Shown one piece after another: positions 424-33,187 of a stretch of DNA of 33,303 nucleotides; the stretch's first letter is position 1; every line of letters begins with the position of its first letter. A model generated the notes under the pieces. The model searched no databases. It was not told the DNA's origin and was given only the letters and a program-made list of their open reading frames with translations. Source of the DNA: Spirochaetaceae bacterium. Its GTDB lineage: Bacteria > Spirochaetota > Spirochaetia > DSM-27196 > SLAA01. The stretch is taken from NCBI GenBank assembly GCA_003552185.1, contig PUOW01000030.1, forward strand, positions 1-33,303, written 5' to 3'. Position numbers and translations under genes: made by a program.

Positions 424-476
424 TTTACTTCGCCGGCGGGTCACCCCACGCAACTCTGTACTGTGTGAGCGTCGCT

Positions 477-1769
477 ATGACAATCAACGTCGATTCCGAA
501 GTCTCCCCACTGAAGGCGGTTTTGCTGCACCGCCCCGGCCGCGAGCTCGAGCGCCTCACCCCCGACCACCTCGAAAACATGCTGTTCGAAGACATCCCCT
601 GGGTTGAGAAGATGAGCCGCGAACATGATCAGTTCGCGCGCACCCTCGCCGATGAAGGATGCGCGGTGTACTATCTGAGCGAGTTGCTCGGCGAAGTGCT
701 TTCCGGCGCTTCCGAGGCCGCCGGGAGCAATCAAGGCGCGGGCGGTGGGACTGCGGAGAAGGGCGCGAGCCGGATCGCCGCGAGCAACCACCCATCCGCC
801 GCCGAGGCGCGTCGTGCGCTGATCGAAACCACGCTCGAGCACTGCGGCCTGCGAGACACGCTCGAGGCAGGCCCGATCGAAGCCTACCTGAACGAGCTGG
901 ATGCGCGCAGCCTCGCCGAGGTGATTATCACCGGACTGGAGAAGCACGAGATCTCGTTTGCGCCGGCGCGACGTCCGCTCAGCCATTACGTGCGCGAAGG
1001 AAACCCCTTCTACATCCCACCACTCGCGAACCTGTACTTCACGCGCGACCCTGCAACCGTGATCGGTCCTACGCTGTCGATCAACCCCATGAAGGCGGGA
1101 GCCCGGCGGCGCGAGAGCACGTTGATCGCCTTTGTCGTTGCCCATCATCCGCTGCTGCGGGAAAACCGCGAGGTGCTCACCTACCGTGAGAACCCTGCCC
1201 ACACCATAGAGGGCGGCGATATCCTGGTGCTCAACCGCAAGGCGGTGGTGGTCGGGTGCAGCGCGCGGACCTCACCGGCTGCGATCGAGCAACTGGCTTC
1301 CCGCTTACTGCGGCGCGGGTTCGAGCAGGTCCTTGCGGTTCAGATCCCGGCGGCTCGGGCCTACATGCATCTGGATACGGTGCTGACGATGGTGGATCAC
1401 GACGCGTTCTCGATCTTCGGCGGAGTGGAGCGCGAGCTCGCGGTCTACCGTCTGCACGGCACCCCGGAGCTCACGGTTGAGCCGGTCGACAGCCTCACCG
1501 AAGCGCTGGAGCAGGCGCTGGGGTTGAGTGAGGTCCGGTTGATAAGAAACGTCGAGGGCGACACCCTCAGCGCGGCGCGCGAGCAGTGGAACGACAGCAC
1601 CAACACGCTGGCGGTCGCACCGGGCAGAGTTATAACCTACGACCGGAACGTGATCTCGAACCGTGAGCTCAGACGCAACGGCATCGAGGTCCTCGAGATA
1701 GAGGGCTCAGAGCTGGTTCGCGGTCGCGGCGGGCCGCGTTGCATGAGCATGCCGCTGCTACGCGAATGA
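477..1769 (+). CDS. arcA: Arginine deiminase
   Basis: Hydrolyses arginine to citrulline and ammonia, the first step of the cytoplasmic arginine deiminase pathway. Family blocks are visible in order: SPLKAVLLHRPGRELERL, LFEDIP with REHDQF, YFTRDP, EGGDILVLN, HLDTVLTMVD, and the C-terminal GPRCMSMPL that carries the nucleophilic cysteine (codon 1740-1742). Length is 430 residues, a little over the usual 405-420, because a Gly/Ala/Ser-rich stretch (about 705-804) sits between the YLSELL helix and the next helical domain. The start is uncertain: ATG at 477 is chosen, but an in-frame GTG at 465 is possible and neither has a clear ribosome site. Ornithine carbamoyltransferase follows 74 bases later, so arginine use (citrulline to ornithine plus carbamoyl phosphate) is likely. 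Carbamate kinase is not in the window. Confidence 0.93.
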   Translation: MTINVDSEVSPLKAVLLHRPGRELERLTPDHLENMLFEDIPWVEKMSREHDQFARTLADEGCAVYYLSELLGEVLSGASEAAGSNQGAGGGTAEKGASRIAASNHPSAAEARRALIETTLEHCGLRDTLEAGPIEAYLNELDARSLAEVIITGLEKHEISFAPARRPLSHYVREGNPFYIPPLANLYFTRDPATVIGPTLSINPMKAGARRRESTLIAFVVAHHPLLRENREVLTYRENPAHTIEGGDILVLNRKAVVVGCSARTSPAAIEQLASRLLRRGFEQVLAVQIPAARAYMHLDTVLTMVDHDAFSIFGGVERELAVYRLHGTPELTVEPVDSLTEALEQALGLSEVRLIRNVEGDTLSAAREQWNDSTNTLAVAPGRVITYDRNVISNRELRRNGIEVLEIEGSELVRGRGGPRCMSMPLLRE

Positions 1770-1843
1770 GCCTGACGGGAGTAGACGCCGGCGCAGCCTG
1801 TGGTTATGGTACCAACATTCACGCGGAGATCTGGAGGTAAGGC

Positions 1844-2836
1844 ATGCCGGTTAACCTGCGAGGAAGACATCTTCTGACGTTGAAGGACCTGAGCACCGAG
1901 GAGATTCAGTACCTGCTGGACCTCTCGCTGGACCTCAAGCAGAAGAAACGCGCCGGGATACGGACGAAGCTCCTCGACGGCAAGAACGTCGTCCTGATAT
2001 TCGACAAAGCATCCACTCGAACGCGGTGTGCTTTTGAAGTAGCGGTGTACGACGAAGGCGGGCATGTCACCTTTCTCTCCAACAGCCAGATGGGCAAGAA
2101 GGAGTCCCTCGAGGATACCGCCCGCGTGCTGGGGCGCTATTACGACGGGATCGAATACCGCGGCTTCAGCCAGGACACCGCCGAGCTGCTCGCGCGCCAC
2201 GCGGGTGTGCCGGTCTGGAACGGCCTGACCGACACCGACCACCCAACGCAGATCCTCGCCGACTTCATGACGGTACGCGAGCACATCCGCAAACCGCTCG
2301 AGCAAGTGAAGCTCGTGTTCATGGGCGACACCCGCAACAACATGGCGAACGCCATGATGATCGGCGCGGCGAAAACCGGGATGCATTACCTCGGAGTCGG
2401 CCCCAAAGAGCTCCACCCCGCTGATGGGATCATGCGCGAGATGCGCGCAATCGCGGAGGAAACCGGAGCGGTGATCGAGTGCACCGAGAAGATCGAGCCC
2501 GCAATCGCGGACGCCGATGTCGTCTACACCGATGTCTGGGTCTCGATGGGCGAGGAGTCGCAATTCGAGAAACGCATCAAGCTCCTGAGCCCGTATCAGG
2601 TCACGATGGACCTGATCAAACGCACCGGCAATTCCGAGGTCATCTTCATGCACTGCCTTCCGGCCTTCCACGACACCGAAACAGAGATCGGCGCTGAGAT
2701 CGCCGCGAAGTTCGGGATCACCGAGATGGAAGTTACCGACGAGGTGTTCCGCAGCAAATACTCCAAGGTGTTCGACGAGGCCGAAAACCGCATGCACACC
2801 ATAAAGGCCGTGATGGTCGCCACTATCGGGAGCTAA
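1844..2836 (+). CDS. argF: Ornithine carbamoyltransferase
   Basis: Transfers the carbamoyl group between carbamoyl phosphate and ornithine/citrulline; next to arginine deiminase the catabolic direction (citrulline phosphorolysis) is likely. The 330-residue protein has the carbamoyl-phosphate loop STRTR (residues 57-61), HPTQ (133-136) and the ornithine/catalytic motif HCLP (from residue 270), with the usual N- and C-terminal halves and normal length. A strong GGAGGT precedes the ATG by a few bases. It follows arcA on the same strand after 74 bases. It could also serve arginine synthesis; sequence alone cannot separate arcB from argF, so the symbol is given by family. Confidence 0.94.
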
Positions 2837-4902: not shown

Positions 4903-6378
4903 TTACTTGAAAGGATCCCAGCGCGCGGTCAGCCGCTCGTAACCGGCGGGAAAGAACTCCCGCAACAAGCGGTAGAAGTGAAGCTCCTTCGCCGACCCAA
5001 AGGTCAGCCCCAGGGCACTCGCCGGCGTGCTCGCGAGCTCCTCCTCGGATGCCGCCCCCGCCACCGCCCGGTCCATCAACGCATCCACGCCGACCCCACG
5101 GGCGAAGCGCAGCTTGGGCCGCTCGGCTATCTCGCGCGGAAGCATTTCGCGAAACGCTTCGCGCAGGATCCACTTCTCCACCGGTGCCTCCGGCGCCTGT
5201 TCGGAGACATAGACCTTCAGCTCGAGCGGTATCTTGTCGGCGAACGCCACAACGGCGGTATCGAGGAACGGCGCGCGGTAGTCGACCCCGTTCGCGGTCC
5301 ATGCACGGTCAAGCCGTCGCAACGCGGTGTTGTACGCTACCGCCAGCAGCTTGCGCGCGACCCGTTCGCGCTCGGCCGCATCGTTGATGCTCGTGAGCTC
5401 GCGGAAGTAGCCCCCGAAGAGCTCGTCGGCCCCTTCCCCGACCAGCACCCGCTCGCCCCATTGCGAGGCCAGCCGCGAGGTGTAGTAGTTAGCGATGAAG
5501 CCCGAGACGCAATCCTCGTCGAAGGACTCCAGATGCCACACAGCCTTCGGTATCACCGCGGCGATATCCTCAGCCGTCATCGCATAGACCTCCAGGGGAA
5601 CACCGGCGGCGCGCGCCATCAGCTGCGCGTACTCGAGGTCCTCACCCGGAGAATCTTTGATCGTCGCGCTGAACGCCCTGAGCCCCGGGTTGAGCTCGCG
5701 CGCGGCCGCCAGTACGATCGAGCTGTCAAGCCCGCCGCTCAGCGATACCCCCTCGACCGTCCCGTCGGCCATCGTTTTCTCGACGGCACGAACCACGAGC
5801 TCGCGCAGCACGCGCACCGCTTCTTCCGGACTGTCGAAATCCGGGACCGGCGGGGTATACGGCGTGAACTGCTGAAGCCCGCTGCGGCTGCAGAAGTAGC
5901 TCCCCGGCGGCAACTCCTCCACCGTATCCAGATCCTCGCGGAGCGCCTTCGCCTCGGAGGCGAAATAGAGCGTGCCGCCGGCCGCCACGCCGTACACCAT
6001 CGGCCGCGCGCCGATGGCGTCACGGGCGATGATCGTCCGTTCGCCGTCGATGATCGCACAGCTGAAACTGCCGTCGATCTCCCCGAAACACTCGACCCCC
6101 CTGCGACGGTACAGCTCGCGTACGAAAGCCGCATCGGACATGCCGGGTTGAGTCTTGTTGTACACGACGCCGTCGAGCAATACCGTGGTCGGCGACGCAG
6201 CCTCGCTATCGCGATGCCCCCCGGGGACGGCGGCCGCCATCTCGGCGATGCCGACTACGCCGCCTGCCAGATCGAAGACCTCGGATCTGCGCGGTCCACG
6301 GTGCCGCACCGTTTCGAGCATTCGGTTCACCGTATCTTGATCGGCGCCACGCCCAATGATTCCTACGATCCCGGCCAC
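4903..6378 (-). CDS. Asparagine-synthetase-like protein lacking the glutaminase cysteine
   Basis: A 491-residue member of the AsnB family: an Ntn-type glutaminase-like domain (about residues 1-180), then an ATP-pyrophosphatase synthetase domain with the PP-loop SGGLDSS and the block VLVGEGADELFGGY. The protein starts MAGIVGIIG from a GTG placed after AAGGAGG, so the catalytic Cys that should follow Met is Ala. The glutamine-pocket motif normally NGEIYN reads DGVVYN, also losing the key Glu. The synthetase half looks intact. It probably uses free ammonia or another amine rather than glutamine, or acts in a different acyl-adenylate reaction, as beta-lactam synthetase does. It is the last gene of the corrinoid operon, 32 bases after metF. 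Substrate unknown. Confidence 0.88.
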   Translation of the reverse strand: MAGIVGIIGRGADQDTVNRMLETVRHRGPRRSEVFDLAGGVVGIAEMAAAVPGGHRDSEAASPTTVLLDGVVYNKTQPGMSDAAFVRELYRRRGVECFGEIDGSFSCAIIDGERTIIARDAIGARPMVYGVAAGGTLYFASEAKALREDLDTVEELPPGSYFCSRSGLQQFTPYTPPVPDFDSPEEAVRVLRELVVRAVEKTMADGTVEGVSLSGGLDSSIVLAAARELNPGLRAFSATIKDSPGEDLEYAQLMARAAGVPLEVYAMTAEDIAAVIPKAVWHLESFDEDCVSGFIANYYTSRLASQWGERVLVGEGADELFGGYFRELTSINDAAERERVARKLLAVAYNTALRRLDRAWTANGVDYRAPFLDTAVVAFADKIPLELKVYVSEQAPEAPVEKWILREAFREMLPREIAERPKLRFARGVGVDALMDRAVAGAASEEELASTPASALGLTFGSAKELHFYRLLREFFPAGYERLTARWDPFK

Positions 6379-6410
6379 TGTATCCTCCTTTCAACACCTC
6401 CGGCTCAGGG

Positions 6411-7388
6411 TCAACTGCTCGACGACTGTTCGCCGGAAGCTCCCGCTCCGGTATCCTCAGCTTCGCTCATCCCCAGGCCCCGGTAAATCTCCAACGCGGC
6501 CCTGGAGCGGTTGCGAGTGAAGAGATGAATTCCGTCCACCTGGTTCTCGATGAGGTCAAAGACCTGACCCGTCGCCCAGGTGGTACCCACGTTACGCACC
6601 ATAGCGTCACTTGAAACCCGATCGACCGCCTTCAGCAGCTGCCCCGGGAAGCGGGTAGCCGGGCTGAGGTCTGCGATTCGGTGCATGTCCTTCTTGGAGA
6701 CTATCGGCATGATCCCGGCCAGGATCGGCACCTCGATCCCCGCCATTCTGCAGCGCGCTTGAAAGTCGTAGAACTCGCGGTTGTCGAAAAAGAGCTGAGT
6801 GACCAGCCAGTCGACGCCTGCGTCGACCTTGGCGCGCAGGTACTCCATCTCGAGCAGGCGGTTCGGGGTTTCACGATGCCCCTCGCAGTGACAGCCGGCG
6901 CCGACCGAGATCTCCGGAAACTCGCGCTTGATGAAGCGAACCAGATCGACCGCATGGGGAAAGTCGCGTTTGTGCTTGCTATCGGCTTCGGAGAATGAGC
7001 GGGCCTTCGCGTTCGCGCCCGACCGTTCGCCGCGCAGCGCGAGGATGTTGCGAATGCCCTCCTCGTAGTAAGTGCCGACAAGCTGCTCGATCTCGCTCTT
7101 GCTGCAGCCGAGACAGGTCAGATGCGGGACAACCGTCAGCCCGGTCATGCGCCGAATGCGCAGAACGAGCTCGTGGGTCAATGCCCGCGTTACCGGCCCG
7201 GTGCCGTACCCCACCGTTACGAACGACGGCCTCAGCGGGACCAGCTCTTCGATCGAACGATAGAGCCGCTCGGCTGCTTTCTCGGTGCGAGGAGGGTAGA
7301 AATCGAAGCTCACCGAAACCTCGGCTTTGCGGATCAGCGCTTCCACCCGGGCCTGTTCGGATGATTGCTGTGAAGAAAACGTACTCAT
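6411..7388 (-). CDS. metF: Methylenetetrahydrofolate reductase-like protein (MetF family)
   Basis: A 325-residue TIM-barrel flavoprotein of the MetF family, which interconverts methylene- and methyl-tetrahydrofolate. Family blocks are clear: SFDFYPPRTEKA, FVTVGYGTGP, NILALRGE, DAGVDWLVTQLFFDN and PILAGIMPI. Two residues that are catalytic in the E. coli enzyme differ: the Glu28 position is Asp (residue 29) and the Asp120 position is Glu (residue 121). The usual YPEGHPE block reads CHCEGHRE. The start codon overlaps the upstream mttB stop by four bases (ATGA), so translation is coupled. In this operon it would most simply oxidise methyl-tetrahydrofolate made from methylated amines, but it could also supply methyl-tetrahydrofolate for methionine synthesis. 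Confidence 0.9.
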   Translation of the reverse strand: MSTFSSQQSSEQARVEALIRKAEVSVSFDFYPPRTEKAAERLYRSIEELVPLRPSFVTVGYGTGPVTRALTHELVLRIRRMTGLTVVPHLTCLGCSKSEIEQLVGTYYEEGIRNILALRGERSGANAKARSFSEADSKHKRDFPHAVDLVRFIKREFPEISVGAGCHCEGHRETPNRLLEMEYLRAKVDAGVDWLVTQLFFDNREFYDFQARCRMAGIEVPILAGIMPIVSKKDMHRIADLSPATRFPGQLLKAVDRVSSDAMVRNVGTTWATGQVFDLIENQVDGIHLFTRNRSRAALEIYRGLGMSEAEDTGAGASGEQSSSS

Positions 7389-8845
7389 GATAGCGATTCC
7401 AGATCGTGTTTTATGCAGGCGAGGTCGAGCTCGCCGGGGATGCGCTCGCCGGTATAAAGCAGCCCGGCGCGCAGCCCCTTGCGGGAGCTCTTCATGAACA
7501 CACGGCTGCCGCCTTCGGTTTCGACGGCCGAACCGATCGTCTCGAGCTCGCGATCGAGCGCCCCGCGCGAGTACTCCTCGCGACGCTCTTCGATGAAGCT
7601 CACCTGCGCTTCAAGCTCGCCCTCAGCCTCGGGTCCGAGCTCCACCCCGAACCGCGCCAGCGCCGTGCGCGCAACCTCCTGCGCGGCCTCGCGAGCGGTC
7701 AGATCATGACGCTCCTTAAGCGTTTCCGCGAGCGTCTCGACGATCACGTTGTCGATCAGGTACTGCGCCGGCGCCACCGTCATCACACGCTCGAGCATTC
7801 CGAACGCGCTGTTGATATACTGCGCTCCGGCGAGCGCCACATAGGTGAGACTCACCGCCTTCTCGGCGATCGCCTGGGCGTTCGGCTCGCGCTCATCGGA
7901 GACACCGGCGGTACCGCAACACGGCAGCCGGTAATGCCGGCACAGCTCAGTAGCGAGCGTCAGGCGGCGGATGCTGTCGGGACGGCACCAGCGCGGCGAG
8001 CAGTCGCCCAGCAGGTCCGCGGTGAGCGGTATGCCGCGGTACAGCACCGGAGCGCCGGGATTCAGCGCCTGAACGAACGCGATCCCGAACAGCACCTCGG
8101 CGTTGAGCTGCACGAGCTCACCGGCCTCCGACAGGGGCGCGGTGGTTCCGCCCTGCGCACAGCTCGAGATCGAGACCGGGATTCCGCGCTCGGTGACCGC
8201 CCGCAACCGTTCGACTGCCGAGTCGTCGACCGTGAGCGGGCTGCTCACCAGGCAGACGATGAACGAAAGATACGATTCCCGGCCGACGATCTCGATCACG
8301 CGCTGCAGCTTGCTCGGGTCCACGAGGTTCGCGAGGTTCATCGGTTTGGTAGTGTTGGCGGCGAAGGCGCGCGCCTTTTCCTCGTCCATGCGCTCTTTCG
8401 GTACGTCACATTCCACCGGCCGCGTCACGAAGTCCAGATACGGCAGCCGTTCGCACAGCCGCAGCAGGCTCACCAGGTCGTCCCTGCCGGCCGCCCTGCG
8501 CTCCCAGGCACCCGCCGGCCGGTCGAGCAGGTACAGCGCCTGCCCCCCGCTGCCGAACCGCGCGACGTTGCCGGCCGCATCGAGCGTGAACGCGTGCTCC
8601 GAAGCCGGAGCGTCAAAGCGGATCGTTTCGGGCGCCGAAGCCAGCGCTTGCTCCACCACCGAGGTACGCAGATACAGGCGGCCGTTCTCCGCCATCGCGG
8701 CGCCGGTCTTGGTGAACGTTTCGATCACCTTCGGATCTCGGACCTTAACGCCGATGGTCTCGAGCACCTCACACGAGGCAGCGTGGATGAGGTCCTTTTC
8801 GCGTGCGGACAGCAGCTCCGGCGGCCGGCCGGTGATCTCGATCAT
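7385..8845 (-). CDS. MttB-family corrinoid methyltransferase (copy 1)
   Basis: A 486-residue member of the trimethylamine methyltransferase superfamily, expected to move a methyl group from a quaternary or tertiary amine to the Co(I) corrinoid protein encoded next to it. Blocks shared with the other two copies are FGSGGQALYLLD, VSSPLTVD, CAQGGTTAPLS and NPGAPVLYRGIP. No in-frame TAG interrupts it, so it is of the non-pyrrolysine type, like the glycine betaine enzyme MtgB. The ATG at 8845, preceded by GGGAG, is chosen over a frame-open extension of 43 residues whose composition (Arg/Ser-rich) does not match the family. The gap to the corrinoid protein gene is 22 bases. Betaines, carnitine or proline betaine are possible substrates. 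Confidence 0.9.
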   Translation of the reverse strand: MIEITGRPPELLSAREKDLIHAASCEVLETIGVKVRDPKVIETFTKTGAAMAENGRLYLRTSVVEQALASAPETIRFDAPASEHAFTLDAAGNVARFGSGGQALYLLDRPAGAWERRAAGRDDLVSLLRLCERLPYLDFVTRPVECDVPKERMDEEKARAFAANTTKPMNLANLVDPSKLQRVIEIVGRESYLSFIVCLVSSPLTVDDSAVERLRAVTERGIPVSISSCAQGGTTAPLSEAGELVQLNAEVLFGIAFVQALNPGAPVLYRGIPLTADLLGDCSPRWCRPDSIRRLTLATELCRHYRLPCCGTAGVSDEREPNAQAIAEKAVSLTYVALAGAQYINSAFGMLERVMTVAPAQYLIDNVIVETLAETLKERHDLTAREAAQEVARTALARFGVELGPEAEGELEAQVSFIEERREEYSRGALDRELETIGSAVETEGGSRVFMKSSRKGLRAGLLYTGERIPGELDLACIKHDLESLS

Positions 8846-8867
8846 GGTACTCGCTCCCGCGGTGCGC

Positions 8868-9551
8868 TCAGGAAGCGCTCCGCAGCGCTTCCAGCTTCTC
8901 GACCGCTTCGAGCGCGTCGCGGCAATGCCCGTCGGCACCGATCTTCCGCGCGAACTCCTCTGAGGTGGGGGCACCGCCGATAATCACCTTCACATCGGTG
9001 ATTCCCGCCTCCTTGAGCTGTCGGATCACCGTCTCCATCTCAGTCATCGTCGTGGTCAGGAGCGCCGACAGACCCAGATACTGCGGCTTGTGTTCCTTCA
9101 CCGCGGCAACGATCTCGTCGGCCGGCACATCAATACCGAGATCCCGCACCTGATATCCGGCGCCTTTGAGCATGGTGATGACGATGTTCTTGCCGATGTC
9201 GTGCAGGTCGCCCTTCACCGTGGCAATCAGGAAGGTACCCTTCTGCGTATCCGCCGTACCGGCAAGATGCGGTTCCAGGACGTCCATCGCCTCTCCTACG
9301 CATTCGGCACTCGCGAGCATGTCCGGTAACAGATACTCGCCTGCCTCAAACAGCCTTCCGACCTCGTCCATCGCCGCGTTGAACACCGTAAGAATCTGCT
9401 GCGGATCGGTCTCGGCTTCCAGGGCCTGCTCGACCAGCTCCACCGTACCCGGCGTTCCTTCCATACTGCCGTCGAACCCTTCGTCTTCGGCGTCGAGGTG
9501 GCCCATAACGATTGAGTTACGGATCTCCTCGAGAATGTCACGTTCGCTCAT
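8868..9551 (-). CDS. Corrinoid (B12-binding) methyl carrier protein
   Basis: This 227-residue protein holds the cobamide that carries the methyl group between the MttB-type enzymes and tetrahydrofolate. An N-terminal helical cap domain (about residues 1-95) is followed by a Rossmann B12-binding domain with the DxHxxG motif in GDLHDIGKN (His117 as the lower cobalt ligand) and the block IIGGAPTSEEFARKIGADG. An acidic stretch (MGHLDAEDEGFDGSMEG) lengthens the first helix region compared with MtbC/MtgC proteins. It begins after GGGAGG, 11 bases from the mttB copy 2 stop. It is the only corrinoid protein in the operon although there are three methyltransferases, so it probably serves all of them. 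Confidence 0.93.
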   Translation of the reverse strand: MSERDILEEIRNSIVMGHLDAEDEGFDGSMEGTPGTVELVEQALEAETDPQQILTVFNAAMDEVGRLFEAGEYLLPDMLASAECVGEAMDVLEPHLAGTADTQKGTFLIATVKGDLHDIGKNIVITMLKGAGYQVRDLGIDVPADEIVAAVKEHKPQYLGLSALLTTTMTEMETVIRQLKEAGITDVKVIIGGAPTSEEFARKIGADGHCRDALEAVEKLEALRSAS

Positions 9552-9562
9552 CTTCAGCCTCC

Positions 9563-11164
9563 CTATCCGCGTATGTCGAACATACGTCGGTCAATCAACC
9601 CCGGAACAGAGGCGTAAACGCGATCTACCGTCGCGTCGCTCAGCCGCCTCGGCTCGAGCTGATACAGCTCTTCCAGTTTGCGCTGCGCGCGTTCGAGTAC
9701 CCGGTCAGCCTGTCCGTCGTCGGCGAATGCGTAGGCATCCCCCACTACGCCGCGCCGGAGCTGTTTGCGCACTCGGCGGGCAAACACTCCCGAACTGCGC
9801 GCCACGCTGCGAATCTCCTCCACCGCAGCCGCCAGATCGTCGCGTGTAAAGCGGCACGGTCTTACGATTTGCTTCACCAGTCCGATCGCGCCGTCGTCGA
9901 GCACCGCCTGCAGCGGGGAGAAGATATTGGTGCGGTCCAGCAACCCGAACGCGTAGTGGATATACTGCGCGCCGCTTGCCGCAACCGAGAGATGCGAAGG
10001 GAGCTTCTCGACCGTCGCCTGCAGGCCGGGGCGCTTCGCGTCGCCGACGCCCGCGCTTGAGTAGCACGGGATACCGTAGCTGCGCGCCATCTGGACGCAG
10101 GCCAGGTTGTAATGCACGAACTCGGGAGCCCCGTAGAAGTCGTGCAGATTGTCGAGCCGCGCCCTGACCGGCACCGCGCCGTAAAGCACCGGACACCCGG
10201 GCCGGGCAAGCTGCGCCAGCGCGAGCCCGGCGAGTATCTCGGCGTTGATCTGCGCCACCATTCCCTCTTCCTGGATTGGGGCGGTGGAGCCGCCCTGCGG
10301 CGAACAGGAGATCACGAGGGGCACCCCGGCCTCCGCAATCGCCACCACCTTCTCGGCCGTGTCCGCTACCATCTGCAGCGGGCTCTTGACCGGACAGGCG
10401 ATGAACGAAACAGGCAGCGCCCGCCCGCGCTCCGTGCTGTCCGGGCTTGCGCCGTCGCGCTCCGCGCTGTCCGGGTCTGCGCCGTCGGCGGCCGCGAGCT
10501 CAGCGAGGCGCAGCATCGGCTGCAACGCCTCCAGGCTCTCGAGCCCGCCCTGCACGTGCTTGGCGGTGTGGAGCAGAGCAGCGAAGTAGATATTGACGTC
10601 CCGGTGCTCTGCAGGAATGCTCTCGTCCTGCGCGTTGACGTTGCGGATGAAGAAATCCACGTTCGAAAGATGCTCGGCGAGGTGCGCTGACCGGCATAGA
10701 TGCGCGATGGAGCCCGTACTCTCTGAGTAAACCGGAAGGATCGTGGCGTGCTCAGGCGATTCCTCCGAACTGAAACTCGCCAAGCGCGACTCGAGCACCA
10801 GATTTGCCTGCGACCCGGTTCCGAAGTACACATTCGGTTCCGTTCCGCGCAAAACCAGGGTGTTAGCCGGGTCGCGCGCCCCGAGAACCACTTCATCCGG
10901 AGCCGACTCGAGCGCCCGCTCGATTACCGCAGCGGAGATCCGCACCCGGTAGCCGTCCTGTCGACCGCTCTCGGAAACCCGCGTGAGCGTGCACCCGCCG
11001 GCTTCAAAGGCCGCAAGCGCGCGCTCACCGCTGCACCATATCCCCGGGTCCTCGAGGAGCTCCAACGAAGCCGCATGAACGCTTTGCACCTGCTCGGCGG
11101 ACAGCCGGGATACAGGGTCAACTACAAGCGCTTTTCTAACCGCTGCCATACTAGCCGCTGCCAT
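9563..11164 (-). CDS. MttB-family corrinoid methyltransferase (copy 2)
   Basis: A 533-residue paralogue of copies 1 and 3, with YFGTGSQANLVLES, CPVKSPLQMV, CSPQGGSTAPIQ and RPGCPVLYGAVP. It lacks an in-frame amber codon, so no pyrrolysine is expected. Two oddities are visible. A 30-bp unit is tandemly duplicated inside the gene (10428-10487), adding an Asp/Ser/Glu/Arg/Gly-rich stretch just before VSFIACPVKSPL. The start region is itself a 15-bp duplication, so the protein opens MAAASMAAVRK with two ATGs. The first ATG (11164) is chosen because GAGG lies five bases before it, within the stop codon region of the upstream gene seven bases away. The substrate is unknown; a methylated amine is expected from the family. 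Confidence 0.88.
   Translation of the reverse strand: MAAASMAAVRKALVVDPVSRLSAEQVQSVHAASLELLEDPGIWCSGERALAAFEAGGCTLTRVSESGRQDGYRVRISAAVIERALESAPDEVVLGARDPANTLVLRGTEPNVYFGTGSQANLVLESRLASFSSEESPEHATILPVYSESTGSIAHLCRSAHLAEHLSNVDFFIRNVNAQDESIPAEHRDVNIYFAALLHTAKHVQGGLESLEALQPMLRLAELAAADGADPDSAERDGASPDSTERGRALPVSFIACPVKSPLQMVADTAEKVVAIAEAGVPLVISCSPQGGSTAPIQEEGMVAQINAEILAGLALAQLARPGCPVLYGAVPVRARLDNLHDFYGAPEFVHYNLACVQMARSYGIPCYSSAGVGDAKRPGLQATVEKLPSHLSVAASGAQYIHYAFGLLDRTNIFSPLQAVLDDGAIGLVKQIVRPCRFTRDDLAAAVEEIRSVARSSGVFARRVRKQLRRGVVGDAYAFADDGQADRVLERAQRKLEELYQLEPRRLSDATVDRVYASVPGLIDRRMFDIRG
10428..10487. repeat. In-frame 30-bp tandem duplication inside mttB copy 2
   Basis: Two head-to-tail 30-bp units (10428-10457 and 10458-10487) differ at only three bases. 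Read in the gene they give two ten-residue units, GADPDSAERD and GASPDSTERG. The flanking sequence matches the other MttB copies, so the duplication is an insert in a non-conserved loop. Confidence 0.9.
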
Positions 11165-11169
11165 ACTCG
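11140..11169. repeat. 15-bp tandem duplication carrying the start codon of mttB copy 2
   Basis: Units 11140-11154 and 11155-11169 differ at one base. Each contains an ATG on the minus strand (11147-11149 and 11162-11164), so the gene has two in-frame start codons five codons apart. Only the outer one has a well-placed GAGG. Confidence 0.85.
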
Positions 11170-11171
11170 CC

Positions 11172-12014
11172 TCACTGCCGTAGTGCGCCCTCAGGCGGCG
11201 CCCCGTCGAACAGCCCTTTTCTCGCCGCCCGCGTAAAGCGCCTGCAGAAGCGGTCCTTGCCGGCGAGCAGCTCGCCCAACACGATAGCCCTGCTGATTTC
11301 TTCGCGTCCCGGATCGCAGATAGCCGAGGTGAGACCGTAACAGATCGCGGTTGTCAGAAACGCCGCGTTCACGACGGCCCGTTTGGTAAGCCCGTGCGAG
11401 ACATTCGAGAGCCCGAGCGTGATTCCCGCACCGGGGAACCGCGCGCGCAAGCCTTCGATAGTACGAAAGGTGACCATCGCCTGGGAAACATCGGTGGAAA
11501 CCGGGAGCACCAACGGGTCGAACCACAATCGCTCCTCAGGCACCCCCTGCGCGCCGGCGGCGTCGCGGATCTTCTCGCACACCGCGATACGTTTCCCGGT
11601 TTCGGCCGGAATCCCGTCCTCGTCCATCGCCAGGGCAATCAGCGGCACTTCGTGCTCGGCAGCCAGCCCGATCATCACGAGATCACCGTCGGTGAGCTCC
11701 CCGGTGATGGAGTTGAGCATCCAGGAACGCCGATTCGCCAGGTGATTGGCGGCATGCTCGAGCACCTCCGGACCGGCGGCATCCAGGGCCACTTTCTTCT
11801 CGCCGTGTTCGAGGGCGATATCGATCAACCACGCCAGATCGGTCTTCTCCTGCTGTTTGTCCCCCGAGCCTGTGCCGGCGTTGAGATCGATGTACTCAGC
11901 GCCGGCTTGTTCCTGGCTCCGGATCTCATCGATGATCACGCCGGCATCGCGGCTTTGAATGGCTTCGCGAATACGTTTACGGGTGGCGTTGACCCTTTCG
12001 CCTATGATCGTCAT
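11172..12014 (-). CDS. Methylcorrinoid:tetrahydrofolate methyltransferase (MtgA/AcsE-like)
   Basis: A 280-residue pterin-binding TIM barrel of the family that holds AcsE, MtrH-like and MtgA proteins. It opens MTIIGERVNATRK and carries AGAEYIDLNAGTGSG, WMLNSITGE, FDPLVLPVSTD and ITLGLSNVSHGL, all characteristic of methyltetrahydrofolate:corrinoid methyltransferases. In the glycine betaine system of Desulfitobacterium hafniense, MtgA moves the methyl group from the methylated corrinoid protein to tetrahydrofolate, and the same role fits here. Dihydropteroate synthase is the structural relative but is less likely in this setting. The start overlaps the stop of mttB copy 3 by four bases (ATGA), and the stop is seven bases from the next start, so translation of the operon is tightly coupled. 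Confidence 0.9.
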   Translation of the reverse strand: MTIIGERVNATRKRIREAIQSRDAGVIIDEIRSQEQAGAEYIDLNAGTGSGDKQQEKTDLAWLIDIALEHGEKKVALDAAGPEVLEHAANHLANRRSWMLNSITGELTDGDLVMIGLAAEHEVPLIALAMDEDGIPAETGKRIAVCEKIRDAAGAQGVPEERLWFDPLVLPVSTDVSQAMVTFRTIEGLRARFPGAGITLGLSNVSHGLTKRAVVNAAFLTTAICYGLTSAICDPGREEISRAIVLGELLAGKDRFCRRFTRAARKGLFDGAPPEGALRQ

Positions 12015-13501
12015 GGCGCACCTCCGGCTGCGTTCCGGCCTGCTGGGTTAGGGCCGCCTGCGGTCGTTGTGCCGGAAGCGAGCCCAAAGCGACTCTCAAC
12101 GCGCGCGCGGACGGCGTCATCCAGGAGCGCGGCGGGCCTCCGCGCGAGGATATCGAGAACGCGCTCGTGCGCTCGAGATGCAGCCGACAGCCGGCCGTTG
12201 GCCTCCCATTCTGGGCGTTGACTGCGGTCACTCAGCTGCGGATGGAAGTGCTCGGCACGCATGAACGCGCGCGTCTTGCGGCTGGTGAGGAAGTTTCCTC
12301 CCGGCCCGACCTTTTGAATGTCGTCAACCGCCAGGGTCCGCTCGTTGACCTCAATGCCGCGCACCGCGCGGCGCACCATCCCGAGAATCTCATTGTCGAT
12401 AACGAGCTTCTCGAGACTGACGGTCAGAGCGAACTCCATCAACCCAGCCGCGTCGTGGATGAAGTCCGAGCCGGCAAGCGCCACGAGCAACGAGCTGACC
12501 GCCGATTCGTAGCCTGATTGGGCGTCGAGCGTCTTGGCGTCGCTGATGCCGGCGGTAGCGTAGTACGGTATGCCGTAATACTGGGTCAGCTGTGCCGTCG
12601 CGGCGTTGATCATGGCCCCTTCAACCGGCGCTCCGAGGTACGAGAGGTTATGCAGGTCGGTGGTGGAGGCAACGCACCCGTAGATCACCGGACAGCCCGG
12701 GTTGACGAGCTGGGTGAGCATGACGTTGATCAGCGCGTCGCAGTTCTGGATAACCAGCGCTCCGGCCAACGACATCGGGGCGGTTGCGCCGCAGAGCGGC
12801 TCGGCCGGGACTGCAAGCGGTATTCCCTCGCCTGCCACCTGCATCATGTAGGCGCCGTACTTGCTGTCCAGCCGCAGCGGACTGATCCCGCAGGTGATCA
12901 TCGAGATGAACGGGCGTTCGCGCAGGGCCTGCGGCGACCCCGCGATCATCTCGGCCATGCGGATCACGTCGTCGATACCCTTTGCGGTATACACCCCGCC
13001 CATGATGTGCTTAGTGGTATGGCTGAGACCGGTGTAGAAGCGGTTGAGATCCACCTGCTCGGGTTCGAGATCACTGGGGTAAGTTGGGAGTAGGAACAGG
13101 TCGATGTTCTCCAGCTCGTGAGCGACCCGCGTCACGTGCTCCAGATCTTTCAGGGTGGCCCTTCTCGTGGTACCCTGCTGGTAGTCCAGCATGTCGAGCG
13201 CGGTACCGCCGGTCCCAAAATAGACCTCCCCCGAGCCGAGCACGCAATCATAGCGCTCCTCGCGTCCGCACAGGGTGACGGTACTCGGGGCACGCGCAAC
13301 CAGCTCGCGAACCGTGTCTGCGTTTAGGCGCACGATACGCCGGTCGGTATCAACCGATTGAGCCACGGCTTTAAAAAGCTCAAACGCTTCCGGCTCGCGC
13401 ACTTCGAACCCGGTCTCGGCGAATACCTCCATCGTTGCCGCATCGATCCGGGCGATGTCGTCCTCCGAAAGCGGCTTATACTGATGCTCGACTCGTCTCA
13501 C
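12011..13501 (-). CDS. MttB-family corrinoid methyltransferase (copy 3)
   Basis: A 496-residue member of the trimethylamine methyltransferase superfamily, starting with GTG after AAGGAGGGGAGG. It shares YFGTGGTALDML, ITCGISPLRLD, GATAPMSLAGALV and NPGCPVIYGCVA with copies 1 and 2, but in place of their (S/C)xQGG core it has EPLCGATAP, so it is the most divergent of the three. No amber codon occurs within the frame. A C-terminal Ala/Gly/Pro-rich tail follows the last conserved helix. It is the first methyltransferase gene after the activation protein, 17 bases downstream. Different substrates for the three copies, feeding one corrinoid protein, are likely but unproven. Confidence 0.9.
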   Translation of the reverse strand: MRRVEHQYKPLSEDDIARIDAATMEVFAETGFEVREPEAFELFKAVAQSVDTDRRIVRLNADTVRELVARAPSTVTLCGREERYDCVLGSGEVYFGTGGTALDMLDYQQGTTRRATLKDLEHVTRVAHELENIDLFLLPTYPSDLEPEQVDLNRFYTGLSHTTKHIMGGVYTAKGIDDVIRMAEMIAGSPQALRERPFISMITCGISPLRLDSKYGAYMMQVAGEGIPLAVPAEPLCGATAPMSLAGALVIQNCDALINVMLTQLVNPGCPVIYGCVASTTDLHNLSYLGAPVEGAMINAATAQLTQYYGIPYYATAGISDAKTLDAQSGYESAVSSLLVALAGSDFIHDAAGLMEFALTVSLEKLVIDNEILGMVRRAVRGIEVNERTLAVDDIQKVGPGGNFLTSRKTRAFMRAEHFHPQLSDRSQRPEWEANGRLSAASRAHERVLDILARRPAALLDDAVRARVESRFGLASGTTTAGGPNPAGRNAAGGAP

Positions 13502-13518
13502 CTCTTGCCCTCCCCTCC

Positions 13519-14247
13519 TTAATCACGCGCGGGGCTCCAGTGGGGATCGTACGCACAGCGACGGAAAGGGCATCGCGGCCTGTCGCAACGGCGACAGGCG
13601 ATGCCGTACTTCGCCACCATCGCGGCGTCACCGATTCCCATGACCGCGGTAACCGACTTCTGCGGCTGCATGAGATACGATTCCGATAACGTAAGCCCGA
13701 TCTTCTCGGGCCGTAACAAGGCGAACATCAGACGCTGCTCTGTAAGCGGCCAATCGCAGTAACCCGGGCTATAGCGCGCGGTGAGTGCGCGCGCCGCCCC
13801 TGAGGGCCCACGCTGCAGCCCGGTGATGATCTCTGCTTCCAGCTCGTCCATAACAGCCTCCACCGCCGCGGTGGCAACCTGATCGAACACCCACTGGTCA
13901 TAGGCCGAGAGCGAGGGATCACGCAGAACATCATCGAGCTGCTCCCCGAGCGTGACCGCACAGACAACCGCGGTCTCGCATTGTGAGAGCACGCCTGAGA
14001 TCAAGCGGCTGCGCACCGGAAAGCGCAGGTCGTCCAGAAAGCAGTATGGATATCCGGGTACCACGCGGACCAGACGCCGGACTGCGCGCGGCTCGGCGAC
14101 CTCGCGCACGCACGCTGCTGCGCGCGCGGCGGCGTGCCGCATCCGCTTAGATGAACCTTTCTTACCGCAAAAGTATGTTTTGGATGCTAAATTCTTTGGA
14201 ACGTCAAGAGGCAGATGTTGCCGGTCCGTCCATTCGGCTTTACGCAT
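13519..14247 (-). CDS. MetH activation-domain-like protein with a four-cysteine tail
   Basis: A 242-residue stand-alone relative of the reactivation domain of cobalamin-dependent methionine synthase. The landmark block is RYSPGYCDWPLTEQ (MetH has RxxxGYPACPDHTEK), followed by IGLTLSESYLMQPQKSVTAVMG. In MetH this domain binds S-adenosylmethionine to re-methylate oxidised Co(II). Here it probably binds the corrinoid protein of the operon and helps return Co(II) to the active state. The C-terminus has cysteines 218, 221, 226 and 231 in a C-x2-C-x4-C-x4-C pattern that could hold an iron-sulfur cluster or zinc; MetH itself has none there. No RamA-type activator is seen, so this may be the operon's reactivase. 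It is the first gene of the operon, with GAGGA ahead of the ATG. Confidence 0.87.
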   Translation of the reverse strand: MRKAEWTDRQHLPLDVPKNLASKTYFCGKKGSSKRMRHAAARAAACVREVAEPRAVRRLVRVVPGYPYCFLDDLRFPVRSRLISGVLSQCETAVVCAVTLGEQLDDVLRDPSLSAYDQWVFDQVATAAVEAVMDELEAEIITGLQRGPSGAARALTARYSPGYCDWPLTEQRLMFALLRPEKIGLTLSESYLMQPQKSVTAVMGIGDAAMVAKYGIACRRCDRPRCPFRRCAYDPHWSPARD

Positions 14248-20736: not shown

Positions 20737-23700
20737 GTGCTATTGCGCAGCCAGATTCACACCGAACGCATTCGATGCTTGCGTGACAGGCAGGCGGGGC
20801 CGCGAGGGCCCTTTCTTTTTGGTCGTTGGCTCACGTTGCTGGCGGTTGCTGTACTCCTCGGCCTGGTCGGTGGCGAGCTCGGCGCCGACGGCGGGGAGGT
20901 CGCAGCCGACAGCCGGCGGGTCGCTTCCGACGGCGGGGAAGTCGGGCTTCCGCGCTTTCCCTCGATAAGCCCGGACGGCTCGGAGCTCGCTTTCAGTTGG
21001 GGCGGCGATCTCTGGCGCGTTCCGGCCGAAGGAGGCCAGGCGCTGCGCCTGACGAGGCACAACCTCGACGACCTTCATTCGAGCTGGAGCCCGGACGGAC
21101 GCCGGATAGCGTTCGCATCGATGCGCGACGGGTATCTCAATATCTGGCGCATCAACCGTGACGGCACTGCGCCGACACAGCTCACCTTCAGTGACCGGTT
21201 CATGCGTAACCCGAGTTACGGCACCGATGAGGGCGGCGAGACCGTGATTACCTTTTCCGGTCTGCTTGAAGCCGACGTGTACCGTGACCAGCGCCCCTAC
21301 ATCGTCTCGCCCGACGGCGGCGAGCATCGCCGCCTCCACGACGCGTTCGGTTCGGAGCCGCGCCTCTCGCCCGACGGTTCCCGCATCGCGTTCACCCGCG
21401 GCGGACACTATCACGACTGGAACAGGCGCCATTACACCGGGCCCGATGCGATGAACGTCTGGATCTACGACCGCAGCACCGAGGAGTTCACCCAGGTGAC
21501 AAGCCGCGACGGCGATGACGGGCGGGCCCACTGGGCCGACGACCGAACTCTTATCTTCATGTCCGACCGTCGACACGACACGGTCAATCTGTATCGCGTT
21601 GAGCTCGGCAACAGCGCCTGGGAAAACCCTGAGGAGCTGCAGTTCGAAGCGCTCACCGATTTCCGGGAGCACGACCTGCGCCATTTCGACGTCTCCCGAG
21701 ACGGAAGCACGGCGGTGCTGCAGGTCTGGGATACACTCTATACGTTGGACCTCGAGGATCCCGAAGCTGAGCCCCGGGCAGTCCCAGTTCGGGCGGCTGA
21801 GGACGGGCACGACGATACCGCGCTGCGCCGCATCGATAACCGCGTCACCGAAGCCGAGCTCAGCCCTGACGGCAGAGTAATGGCGTATATCGCCTACGGG
21901 CGCGTATATGTGCGCCACATGGACGATCACAGCCCCACCCGCGCGGTGACGCCGGGAACGCATGCGCGCCACAGCGATCTGCGCTGGTCCCCGGACGGGC
22001 TGCGTCTGTACTTCACCAACGACGCCGACGGCACCTCCTCGATCTACGAAGCGCGCGTGGCGCTGACGCGCGAGGAGATTCGGCGCGCCTTCGAACAGAC
22101 GCCGCCGGTTCCCATGCGCGAAGACCGCGAGATCCCGCGGGTGATCCCGCCGGAGGACCCGGCCGACGATCCCGAAGAGCCTCCCACCGACAACGACGAG
22201 CCGGACCCGCAGCTCGAGCAGGACGAGATCGACGACCCGTTCGGGCCGGTAGATCCCGGCCACCCGACCGACCCCGTCACACCGCCCGATCCGCATGATC
22301 CGGCATACCAGCCGGCGCCGCCCCAGGAGCCGCCGGCACAGCCTGAGACTGTTCCCGAGGAGGATCTCGACCCGGAGGATCCGGACACACGGCCGGCACA
22401 GTTCGATCCCGCGCGCTGGCACGATGCGGTGCAGTTTACGGTTCGCCCGGTTGTGCAGACTACGCACAACGACCGTGAACCAAGCCCTTCGCCGGACGGC
22501 CGCTACCTTGCGTTTCGCAGGGGCCGAGGCGATCTGGTACTGCGCAATCTCGAAACTCGGCGCGAGCGCGTGCTGGTCGAAGGCTGGGACAGCACCATTC
22601 AGTGGCGCTGGTCGCCTGACTCCCAGTTCATCGCTTATGCCCGGAACGATCTGAACTTCAGCGCCAATATCTTCATCGTGCCTGCCGACGGCTCAGCCGG
22701 TCCGGTGAACATCACCAGGCACCCGCGTAATGACCACAACCCGCGCTGGTCGGCCGACGGACGGATTCTCACCTTCATCTCGAACCGTTCGGGAGACACC
22801 TACGACCTGTACCGGGTCTACCTCGACCGCGAGCTCGAGACCTATACGCCACGCGAGCTTTCAACCTACTATCGCGATGCGGCCGCCGCTGCAAGCCGGC
22901 GAACTCCTCCGCCGGTACGCGTGCCGGGAGCGGCGCCCGCGCCTGAAGCCCCGGCTGCCGAGCACGCCCCCGCGGCGGAAGGCGAGCTGCCGTTCACACA
23001 ACACGATCTTGAAACCGCGTGGCGGCGGGTTGAGCGAGTGACCGCCACACCGTACCACGAGTTCAGCAACGAGATGACCCCGGGCGGTAACCGCTACGTC
23101 TTCAACGTTAGCGGGCAGGGCCTGACAGTGATGGACTGGGACGGCAGCGAGCGCCGGCGCATCGGGGCATCTGCCGCGGTTCAGCATCTGAGCATCAGCG
23201 GTGACCGGGTGGTCTACGTCGCCGGCGGGCGCGTCGGCGTTGCTCCGTTGGCCGGGGGGCAGCATGTGCGTCCTGACATCTCAGACCGCATCCGCGTCGA
23301 CCTCCGGCAGGAATCGCTGCAGAAGTTTCATGAGGCGGCGCGCATGATCGGCGAGAGCTTCTACCAACCGGATATGAAGGGCCTCGATTGGCCGGCGCTG
23401 GTTGAGGAATACGAAGAGCTGGTGGCGCGCGCCCGTACCGCAAGCGAGTTCAGCGATGTAATCAACAGCCTCATGGGCGAGCTGGCCGCATCGCACGTGG
23501 GCGTCTCCAATCCGGGGCCGGCGTCTGCGCTCCGCGAGCCGGCGGGGCGCCTCGGCATAGAGCACGAGCGGGTTGCCCTCGAGGATGACCGCGAAGGCTA
23601 TCGGGTGCTCGATGTGGTGCCCGAAGGGCCCGCCGCCCGCGGACCGATGCGTCTGCAGGAAGGCGATATCATAACCGAGATCGATCTCGAGCCGTTCAGA

Positions 23701-24483
23701 AGACGCGACACTCTGCTGCGCAGCCTGCGTGGAAGCGTCGGCCGGGAGGTTATCGTAACTTTCGAGCGTCCGGTGGCCGACGGCCGGCTCGAGTACCGCG
23801 CGCTCCTGACGCCGGTCGGCTACGGCGAGCTCGCTGAGCTGAAGTACAACGCGTTTCGCGAGCGCAGCCGCGAGCTCGTCCGGGAGCTTTCCGGCGGGCG
23901 CCTCGGCTACATTCACATCGAGGCTATGAACCAGACCTCGCTCGAGGAGTTCCAGGGCGACCTCTACGCAGCCGCCTACGGCAAGGAGGGGCTCATCATC
24001 GACGTACGCAACAACGGAGGCGGACACACGACCGACCGGATTCTAACCTCGATCATGGCCGAAGAGCACGCGTACACCATTCCGGCCGGGGCAGACCCTG
24101 CTAAGACCGGACACTACCCGCAGGACCGGTTGGACGCTCCGCGTTACACCCTGCCGATCAACATGCTCGCCAACGAGAAGAGCTACTCCAACGCCGAGAT
24201 TCTCGCACACGCGTTCCGAACACTGGATCGCGGCACACTGGTGGGCGAGCAAACCTACGGCGGGGTGATCTCCACCGGAGTTCATACGCTGATCGACGGT
24301 GCGACCGTGCGACGGCCGTTCCGCGGGTGGTATCTCCCGGACGGAACCGATATGGAGCACCACGGCGCGGAACCTGACATCCGCGTTCGCCAAACGCCCG
24401 AGGACGAAGTGGCCCAGCGCGACCGCCAGCTCGAGCACGCGGTAGAAGACATGCTCGACCGGCTTAACAACCCTGGGCCCTAA
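20737..24483 (+). CDS. Tricorn-type protease with an N-terminal membrane anchor
   Basis: A 1248-residue homologue of the archaeal tricorn core protease (1071 residues), which cuts peptides from larger protein breakdown. An N-terminal hydrophobic segment (about residues 28-45) suggests export or anchoring, unlike the soluble archaeal enzyme. Then come WD-like propeller repeats with SPDGxxxAF signatures, a Pro/Asp-rich linker (about 455-561), a second propeller, a second Ala/Pro-rich insert (about 718-753), a helical domain, a PDZ domain (about 950-1030) and the tail-specific-protease domain. Catalytic residues can be matched: Ser919-His920 in AASHVG, nucleophile Ser1151 in SYSNAE and Glu1207 in MEHHGAEPD. 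The start is a GTG after GGAGG. Partner aminopeptidases are not in the window. Confidence 0.88.
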   Translation: MLLRSQIHTERIRCLRDRQAGPRGPFLFGRWLTLLAVAVLLGLVGGELGADGGEVAADSRRVASDGGEVGLPRFPSISPDGSELAFSWGGDLWRVPAEGGQALRLTRHNLDDLHSSWSPDGRRIAFASMRDGYLNIWRINRDGTAPTQLTFSDRFMRNPSYGTDEGGETVITFSGLLEADVYRDQRPYIVSPDGGEHRRLHDAFGSEPRLSPDGSRIAFTRGGHYHDWNRRHYTGPDAMNVWIYDRSTEEFTQVTSRDGDDGRAHWADDRTLIFMSDRRHDTVNLYRVELGNSAWENPEELQFEALTDFREHDLRHFDVSRDGSTAVLQVWDTLYTLDLEDPEAEPRAVPVRAAEDGHDDTALRRIDNRVTEAELSPDGRVMAYIAYGRVYVRHMDDHSPTRAVTPGTHARHSDLRWSPDGLRLYFTNDADGTSSIYEARVALTREEIRRAFEQTPPVPMREDREIPRVIPPEDPADDPEEPPTDNDEPDPQLEQDEIDDPFGPVDPGHPTDPVTPPDPHDPAYQPAPPQEPPAQPETVPEEDLDPEDPDTRPAQFDPARWHDAVQFTVRPVVQTTHNDREPSPSPDGRYLAFRRGRGDLVLRNLETRRERVLVEGWDSTIQWRWSPDSQFIAYARNDLNFSANIFIVPADGSAGPVNITRHPRNDHNPRWSADGRILTFISNRSGDTYDLYRVYLDRELETYTPRELSTYYRDAAAAASRRTPPPVRVPGAAPAPEAPAAEHAPAAEGELPFTQHDLETAWRRVERVTATPYHEFSNEMTPGGNRYVFNVSGQGLTVMDWDGSERRRIGASAAVQHLSISGDRVVYVAGGRVGVAPLAGGQHVRPDISDRIRVDLRQESLQKFHEAARMIGESFYQPDMKGLDWPALVEEYEELVARARTASEFSDVINSLMGELAASHVGVSNPGPASALREPAGRLGIEHERVALEDDREGYRVLDVVPEGPAARGPMRLQEGDIITEIDLEPFRRRDTLLRSLRGSVGREVIVTFERPVADGRLEYRALLTPVGYGELAELKYNAFRERSRELVRELSGGRLGYIHIEAMNQTSLEEFQGDLYAAAYGKEGLIIDVRNNGGGHTTDRILTSIMAEEHAYTIPAGADPAKTGHYPQDRLDAPRYTLPINMLANEKSYSNAEILAHAFRTLDRGTLVGEQTYGGVISTGVHTLIDGATVRRPFRGWYLPDGTDMEHHGAEPDIRVRQTPEDEVAQRDRQLEHAVEDMLDRLNNPGP
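20884..20946. repeat. Three in-frame 21-bp tandem units in the tricorn gene
   Basis: Units 20884-20904, 20905-20925 and 20926-20946 encode ADGGEVA, ADSRRVA and SDGGEVG. They sit directly after the hydrophobic anchor, ahead of the first propeller blade, where extra length would act as a spacer. The unit length is a multiple of three. Confidence 0.8.
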
Positions 24484-27558: not shown

Positions 27559-27594
27559 CGCGCGCCGGTTGCCCCACGCCCCGTGCCGCTGCAG

Positions 27595-27624
27595 GGTTGC
27601 CGTGCTCCCGGTTGCCGTGCGCGG
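27595..27624. repeat. Two 15-bp tandem units between ygeW and mocA
   Basis: GGTTGCCGTGC repeats exactly at 27595-27605 and 27610-27620, giving 15-bp units that diverge over their last four bases. The CTGTCGGC sequence that follows near 27660-27685 is also repeated. The 118-base gap holds no gene and no clear terminator. Confidence 0.6.
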
Positions 27625-27676
27625 CCTGCTGCCGCCGCCGGCGCAGCACCGCGTGCCGGCTGTCGGCTGTTGGGTC

Positions 27677-28336: not shown

Positions 28337-28345
28337 CGCCCGGCA

Positions 28346-28351
28346 ATTATA
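28346..28351 (-). promoter_or_regulatory. Perfect -10 box nine bases before mocA
   Basis: TATAAT on the minus strand (28346-28351) lies nine bases before the ATG at 28336. Initiation seven bases downstream would leave only two or three leader bases, so the mRNA would be almost leaderless. No good -35 box was found. Confidence 0.45.
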
Positions 28352-28387
28352 ACCGGTTCGGACCGCGCCTGTACTGGCCCCACACTC

Positions 28388-28413
28388 AATCGTGATTTAC
28401 AATCGTGATTTAC
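28388..28413. repeat. Two 13-bp direct repeats upstream of the threonine-synthase-like gene
   Basis: AATCGTGATTTAC occurs back to back at 28388-28400 and 28401-28413. Each copy ends in TACAAT (28398-28403, 28411-28416), a five-of-six match to a -10 box. Either a duplicated promoter or a binding site is possible; no -35 box stands out. Confidence 0.6.
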
Positions 28414-28496
28414 AATGACCGTGATCCAGACCAGAGCATAGCGCAATCCGGCCGGACGGGGGAGCTTCCGCCGGCGAAGCGGCGCATGGAGGTGCG

Positions 28497-29654: not shown

Positions 29655-29656
29655 TC

Positions 29657-29698
29657 GGCCACGCTATCTTTGAGCTACTCTTCGAGGCGGCGTGGGCC
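29657..29698 (+). terminator. Possible terminator after the threonine-synthase-like gene
   Basis: GGCCACGC (29657-29664) can pair with GCGTGGGCC (29690-29698) with one bulged base, followed by TTTCCTT. The loop of 25 bases is large, so this is a weak candidate. Confidence 0.3.
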
Positions 29699-29757
29699 TT
29701 TCCTTGACTTAGACGCACACAGTGCCCGTTGTCTCAACGCAAAGGAGCGCACAACAC

Positions 29758-31455: not shown

Positions 31456-31514
31456 CCCCGCCCCCGAGCGGCCTTGCGACTAGTAGCCCCGCCCCCGGTC
31501 GAGCTTGCGACTAG
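31453..31514. repeat. Two 31-bp tandem units spanning two convergent stop codons
   Basis: Units 31453-31483 and 31484-31514 both run TAGCCCCGCCCCC to TTGCGACTAG and differ at a few central bases. The first begins with the TAG stop of ade. The second ends with CTAG, which is the TAG stop of the deaminase on the minus strand. A degenerate third copy continues into the deaminase 3' end, probably the source of the repeat. Confidence 0.85.
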
Positions 31515-32002: not shown

Positions 32003-32006
32003 AGGT

Positions 32007-33146: not shown

Positions 33147-33187
33147 CAACAAAACTCCTGAGCATCACTTCTGTCGTCCAGATTTTT

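Follow-up and report, generated by a model that had tools for sequence, protein, structure and literature searches.

The window analysed here, 33,303 nucleotides long, is a whole contig (PUOW01000030.1) of a 3.5-Mb Spirochaetaceae metagenome-assembled genome (MAG) from a soda lake (G000; 457 contigs, 92% complete). Between positions 4903 and 14247 it carries eight intact genes, all on the minus strand and transcribed from 14247 towards 4903, which include three MttB-family genes, a single corrinoid protein gene and an asnB-like gene. Families were assigned with Pfam and NCBIfam profiles. The series starts with a stand-alone MetH-type Met_synt_B12 reactivation protein (act, 13519..14247; PF02965, 2.2e-7), followed by a full-length non-pyrrolysine MttB-family methyltransferase (B1, 12011..13501; PF06253, 4e-101), an MtgA-like, pterin-binding methylcorrinoid:tetrahydrofolate (THF) methyltransferase (11172..12014; PF00809, 2e-21; NF005719, 230 bits for a cut-off of 259) and a divergent MttB-family protein (B2, 9563..11164; PF06253, 1e-49). 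Next come a corrinoid protein of the MtgC/MttC type (8868..9551; PF02310, PF02607 and NF047996, 3e-54), another divergent MttB-family protein (B3, 7385..8845, ATG start; PF06253, 3e-54), a dedicated methylene-THF reductase (metF, 6411..7388; PF02219, 1e-69) and an asnB-like amide synthetase (4903..6378; PF00733, 2e-51; best PDB match 1CT9). From act to the asnB-like gene, the intergenic distances are 17, -4, 7, 11, 22, -4 and 32 bp, the two negative values being ATGA overlaps at the B1/MtgA-like and B3/metF junctions. Open reading frames and sequence thus bear out the gene order, the gaps of at most 32 bases and the two overlaps that the original prediction, made from the sequence alone, had given. 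B1 starts with GTG, preceded by AAGGAGG. A promoter and terminator scan gave signals no better than those in shuffled sequences.

The same eight genes occur in the same order, at 89–95% identity, in a congener (G003; PUPD01000030), a Spirochaetaceae MAG from hypersaline soda-lake sediment included in the data set of a soda-lake MAG survey (PMC6146748). Between the window and G003, the ratio of non-synonymous to synonymous substitution rates (dN/dS) is 0.055–0.14 for each of the eight genes, which denotes purifying selection and argues that the operon results neither from chance nor from decay. Another MAG with a sediment label from this survey (PXDF01000101), a Desulfonatronovibrio, contains act-B1-mtgA-B2-C-B3-asnB, C being the corrinoid protein gene, at 47–75% identity, and in G050, a spirochaete more remote than G003, the genes are arranged as act-B1-mtgA-B2-C-B3-asnB-metF. 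The order act-B1-mtgA-B2-C-B3 plus asnB is therefore constant in four genomes from two phyla. In G050 (L023:12902-15416), asnB and metF are frameshifted, through sequencing error or decay, and the six preceding genes are intact.

A second operon type was found in G002, G020 and G034 (L025, G002:C144; L027, G020:C20; L028, G034:C257). It comprises asnB, a B1-type mttB, a B2-type mttB and a gene for an S-adenosylmethionine (SAM)-dependent methyltransferase of about 430 residues, Methyltransf_25-like, for which a PDB match was sought and none was obtained. No corrinoid gene adjoins it, and corrinoid proteins are encoded elsewhere in the three genomes. No further B2 operon emerged from 393 evenly sampled genomes of the phylum or from sampling of the order of G050, and the other genomes sampled from the class of Desulfonatronovibrio contained no B2 match at operon-level score, which indicates that the operon is rare. 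The plasmid collection yielded distant MttBs and ordinary AsnBs only.

The PF06253 profile matches the TIM barrel of B1, B2 and B3, all above the cut-off (1e-49 to 1e-101), and these are the only three PF06253 genes of the MAG. Their pairwise identity is only about 30–31%. B1 matches the MttB and MtgB structures with E-values of about 1e-76 to 1e-79 and shares with these proteins the C-terminal dimerisation-loop sequence; this sequence is not recognisable in B2 and B3, which match PF06253 only to about position 413–422 of 500. The AlphaFold model of B3 has a pLDDT (predicted local distance difference test score) of 75, and its best structure matches are again MttB and MtgB (about 1e-21). Reference sequences of the family were limited to MtgB, MttB and 4YYC, taken from PDB alignments. 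In a maximum-likelihood tree of 29 sequences, B1, B2 and B3 each form their own clade over the four full operons (100/99 to 100/100). The second operon type contributes sister clades to those of the full operons for both B2 (100/100) and B1 (100/98), from which we conclude that B1 and B2 were inherited as a pair. Conserved in seven loci, B2 is the marker gene of the asnB-linked operons.

None of the three proteins has an in-frame stop codon. At the codon equivalent to MttB Pyl334, the window encodes Ile in B1 (Ile319) and Val in both B2 and B3, and the orthologues have Ile or Thr (B1), Val or Ala (B2) and Val (B3). Pyrrolysine decoding was ruled out, since none of the three genes contains an amber codon, and the TIGR02369 scores (436, 202.5 and 176 bits) all lie below the cut-off of 525 bits; the predicted placement in the non-pyrrolysine group thus holds. 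An Rfam PYLIS_3 match lies inside B1 (12448-12545, minus strand) and begins at the codon aligned with Pyl334, here ATC. It looks like coding kinship to pyrrolysine-containing mttB genes rather than a working element.

In MtgB, residues Y94, N199, R309 and H345 were proposed from a docking model to bind glycine betaine (PMC6855144). The corresponding residues are G, C (or L), Y and D in B1, S, C, Y and Y in B2, and G, C, C and S in B3, while the position of MttB Met249 (PMC9842639) is occupied by Glu, Ser and Cys, respectively. B1 therefore has an acidic pocket, with Glu at the M249 position and Asp at the H345 position, both invariant among orthologues. In B3, Cys 198, 229, 309 and 310 are invariant in the four orthologues; Cys 198, 229 and 310 are at pocket positions and Cys 309 is adjacent to them. 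Their C-x79-CC spacing is one that we take to resemble the zinc motif of homocysteine methyltransferases. As far as can be judged from a docking model and an alignment of proteins about 20–30% identical, none of the three looks like a carrier of the glycine-betaine signature of MtgB. Because of this mismatch, the betaine, carnitine or proline betaine substrates first put forward for these enzymes are unproven.

The other proteins of the operon provide the route for the methyl group. The act protein carries an RYSPGYCDW motif, conserved in four loci, and a Cys-rich C-terminus; RYSPGY presumably corresponds to the SAM motif RxxPGY of MetH. Only PF02965 was matched, with no ASKHA or RACo domains, which rules out an ATP-dependent activase of the RamA/RACo type and refines the predicted activase to a stand-alone MetH-type reactivation domain. 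The corrinoid protein has two domains and the cobalt-ligand motif GDLHDIGKN (DxHxxG type), and is 69–95% identical in relatives. Together with the pterin-binding methyltransferase, this DxHxxG protein marks the locus as a corrinoid:THF methyl-transfer operon. Profile assignment of the MtgA-like and MetF families also upholds the predicted full route to methylene-THF. The operon metF is a second genome copy in G000, G003 and G050, the other copy of G000 being located at G000:C156. Formate-THF ligase is present in the same genome and in the spirochaete relatives. Acetyl-CoA synthase (CdhC/AcsB, PF03598) was not found in seven genomes, including the 92%-complete MAG itself, in a search for which control genomes gave matches; acetogenic (Wood-Ljungdahl) use of the methyl group was thereby ruled out. 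Considering the ligase, the lack of acetyl-CoA synthase and the second metF, methyl groups are probably oxidised and not made into acetate.

Each of the seven loci with B2 contains asnB, the constant partner of B2, and the three examined mttB loci that lack B2 do not. The asnB product still has the SGGLDSS loop for ATP, the GEGADE motif and the C-terminal Lys of the amide-forming half of the asparagine synthetase superfamily. By contrast with this half, the glutaminase residues, including the N-terminal Cys nucleophile, are replaced in the window copy (Ala for Cys1, Glu for R49, Asp for N74 and Val for E76), and all four are also replaced in the second operon type. With these losses and an NF006949 score of 276 bits, for a cut-off of 499, the protein does not qualify as a glutamine-hydrolysing asparagine synthetase B. 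Between the window and G003, the dN/dS of asnB is 0.11, with 0.077 for the synthetase half and 0.166 for the glutaminase half. A Tyr in place of the Glu of the GEG(S/A)D motif (GYGAD) is, on our assumption, the mark of the beta-lactam synthetase type, which was ruled out here as the Glu is kept. The AlphaFold model, built from three sequences, has a pLDDT of 39. Elsewhere in the same genome, two asparagine-synthase-like genes (L088 and L089, at G000:C229 and G000:C319) have SGGMDSA and no Cys nucleophile, and are distant from the operon copy. Our literature search found no paper that links MttB with asparagine synthase.

From gene content, order, conservation, selection and residue states, all read in the sequence, we infer the reactions, their directions and the nature of the substrate. 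The operon most likely demethylates a nitrogen-methylated solute and burns the methyl group via folate. We would put at about even the chance that it encodes, as a single unit, a demethylation pathway that depends on corrinoid and folate and includes amide formation as an integral step. A methylated solute, most probably N-methylated, would donate a methyl group to the Co(I) corrinoid protein by way of the MttB-family enzymes, and the MtgA-like enzyme would pass it to THF. The extra MetF, presumed to run in the oxidative direction with an equally presumed electron acceptor, would convert methyl-THF to methylene-THF, which could be oxidised to formyl-THF and formate or enter biosynthesis. Oxidised cobalamin would be restored by the MetH-type protein, probably with SAM. 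The AsnB-like protein would use ATP to adenylate a carboxylate and then link ammonia or an amine to it; the substrate or the product would thereby go through an amide. The co-inherited B1, B2 and B3 would be a specialised set, not three interchangeable inlets, and would act in turn on a single compound with several methyl groups or form one complex; their fixed order over two phyla and the B1-B2 pair of the second operon type fit joint work in one pathway. The constant association of different demethylases with asnB, which sets the operon apart from its known relatives, suggests a chemical modification of the substrate en route. A more specific version, which we regard as improbable, would combine two features: amide priming by the AsnB-like protein would let MttBs with acidic rather than basic pockets take a carboxylated methylated solute, and B3 would be a metal-cysteine (zinc-thiolate) MttB for an S- or O-bound methyl group or a thiol acceptor.

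Several observations weigh against a dedicated amide-forming demethylation pathway. The window contains no betaine transporter. In Desulfonatronovibrio, no metF adjoins the operon, and formate-THF ligase was searched for in that MAG and not found. The MttBs of the second operon type, with no adjoining corrinoid gene, could act otherwise. The AsnB copies of the three operon groups join at 82/87 support with long branches and are not clearly one lineage, so recruitment may have occurred more than once. The G050 copy retains its glutaminase site; what this site suggests for the nitrogen source of AsnB in G050 is ammonia. Finally, no PF00733 gene other than the operon asnB was found in G003 or G002, and the operon AsnB may thus be a general ammonia-dependent asparagine synthase. 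This last point is also what favours the view of asnB as a passenger, an ordinary asparagine synthetase placed at the operon end by chance, and asparagine synthase B is indeed the nearest named family. We nevertheless hold this unlikely given that asnB accompanies B2, in differing positions, over three operon groups and two phyla, that four glutaminase residues are lost in two groups, and that G020 has a separate glutaminase-competent AsnB elsewhere in its genome. The loss of the glutaminase site also fits the use of free ammonia, as would be expected if asnB assimilated the amine or ammonia nitrogen released from glycine betaine or a similar osmolyte, demethylated through its dimethyl and monomethyl forms with one enzyme per step. 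Such a scheme overlaps the preferred one in positing one pathway and differs in the role of asnB. The charge pattern of B1, opposite to that of MtgB, speaks against it, and a corrinoid-dependent demethylation of tertiary amines that dispenses with pyrrolysine is, to our knowledge, not established biochemically. The presumed saline, alkaline habitat (PMC6146748) is in its favour, as is the sequence glycine betaine, dimethylglycine, sarcosine proposed for 'Ca. Formimonas warabiya' DCMF, another organism with three MttBs in its cluster (PMC9768040); we consider it no more probable than a passenger asnB.

The original prediction had three substrates feeding one hub and assigned no role to asnB. 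On the hub view, B1, B2 and B3 would each take a quaternary amine of their own (betaine, carnitine, proline betaine or the like) and have the corrinoid protein, the MtgA-like enzyme and MetF in common. This view is only partly borne out. In its favour, a single corrinoid protein accompanies three divergent MttBs whose pocket residues differ, and the principle is proven in Eubacterium limosum (PMC8604678). Three separate inlets agree less well with the co-inheritance of B1, B2 and B3 over two phyla and of B1 and B2 in the second operon type, whereas known hub enzymes are encoded apart, and glycine-betaine-type carboxylate-binding residues are missing in all three proteins. Separate inlets are thus possible but doubtful, though somewhat more credible than the other alternatives. 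Least probable among these, B2 and B3 would be non-catalytic partners in mixed oligomers with B1, in the manner of extra subunits. Their shortened PF06253 match and the unrecognisable loop sequence point that way, and in MttB the loop of the partner subunit holds the corrinoid protein (PMC9842639); yet both have long, strictly conserved stretches of their own around the barrel mouth, as is typical of active enzymes. Overall, the separately encoded enzymes of E. limosum and the three MttBs expressed by DCMF on one substrate (PMC9768040) lead us to prefer one pathway.

Outside the operon, the window contains an arginine deiminase gene adjoining one for ornithine carbamoyltransferase (465-2836, plus strand; arginine fermentation), and a gene for a tricorn-like protease of 1248 residues with beta-propeller repeats, a PDZ and an S41 peptidase domain (20737-24483, plus strand). 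Positions 26347-33152 encode a YgeW knotted carbamoyltransferase, a MocA-like protein, a pyridoxal-phosphate enzyme, adenine deaminase and an XdhC-type maturation factor, an island that looks like purine degradation. In the congener G003, another locus (L086, G003:C153:1-14000) encodes a methanol system, with MtaB, a corrinoid protein and uroporphyrinogen-decarboxylase-like proteins.

For most proteins of the MttB family, no substrate is known to us. The fixed association of three MttBs with an amide synthetase in one operon offers a handle on this question, as the product of the synthetase should show to which class the substrate belongs. Should amidation indeed precede demethylation, the MttB family would reach beyond acidic quaternary amines, and saline or alkaline sediments would contain an unrecorded sink for methylated nitrogen solutes that ends in oxidation, not in methane or acetate.

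Among known systems, MtgB-MtgC-MtgA of Desulfitobacterium hafniense likewise combines an MttB-family enzyme, a corrinoid protein and an MtgA-type THF methyltransferase without pyrrolysine. The present operon differs in having three divergent MttBs instead of one, in not keeping Y94, N199, R309 and H345, and in adding a MetH-type activase, metF and an asnB-like gene. Several MttB-family enzymes also share one corrinoid protein in E. limosum, where MtpB, MtcB and MtyB use MtqC; each of these enzymes has its own gene cluster and is induced by itself (PMC8604678), whereas here all belong to one fixed operon. The DCMF cluster, expressed on glycine betaine, resembles the operon by its three MttBs and single MtgA-type gene; it differs by two corrinoid genes, betaine transporters and a Wood-Ljungdahl pathway, and no asnB is reported in the accessible part of that account (PMC9768040). 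A dedicated metF paralogue, MetF2, proposed to oxidise methyl-THF from a demethylated osmolyte, occurs in the MtgBCD-MetF2 system of Ruegeria pomeroyi (PMC12478193), an aerobe in which the system is shared with methionine synthesis and the gene set is different. Lastly, in the MthK-MthB-MthC-MthA choline system of E. limosum, an ATP-using enzyme also stands beside MttB-family demethylation: MthK makes phosphocholine for MthB, an ATP-dependent priming that precedes the MttB-type reaction (PMC12155760). The ATP-using enzyme of the operon would be an asparagine-synthetase-type amide former, a role deduced from its motifs, and not a kinase; the amide-forming step may thus be an analogue, as yet unproven, of MthK priming.

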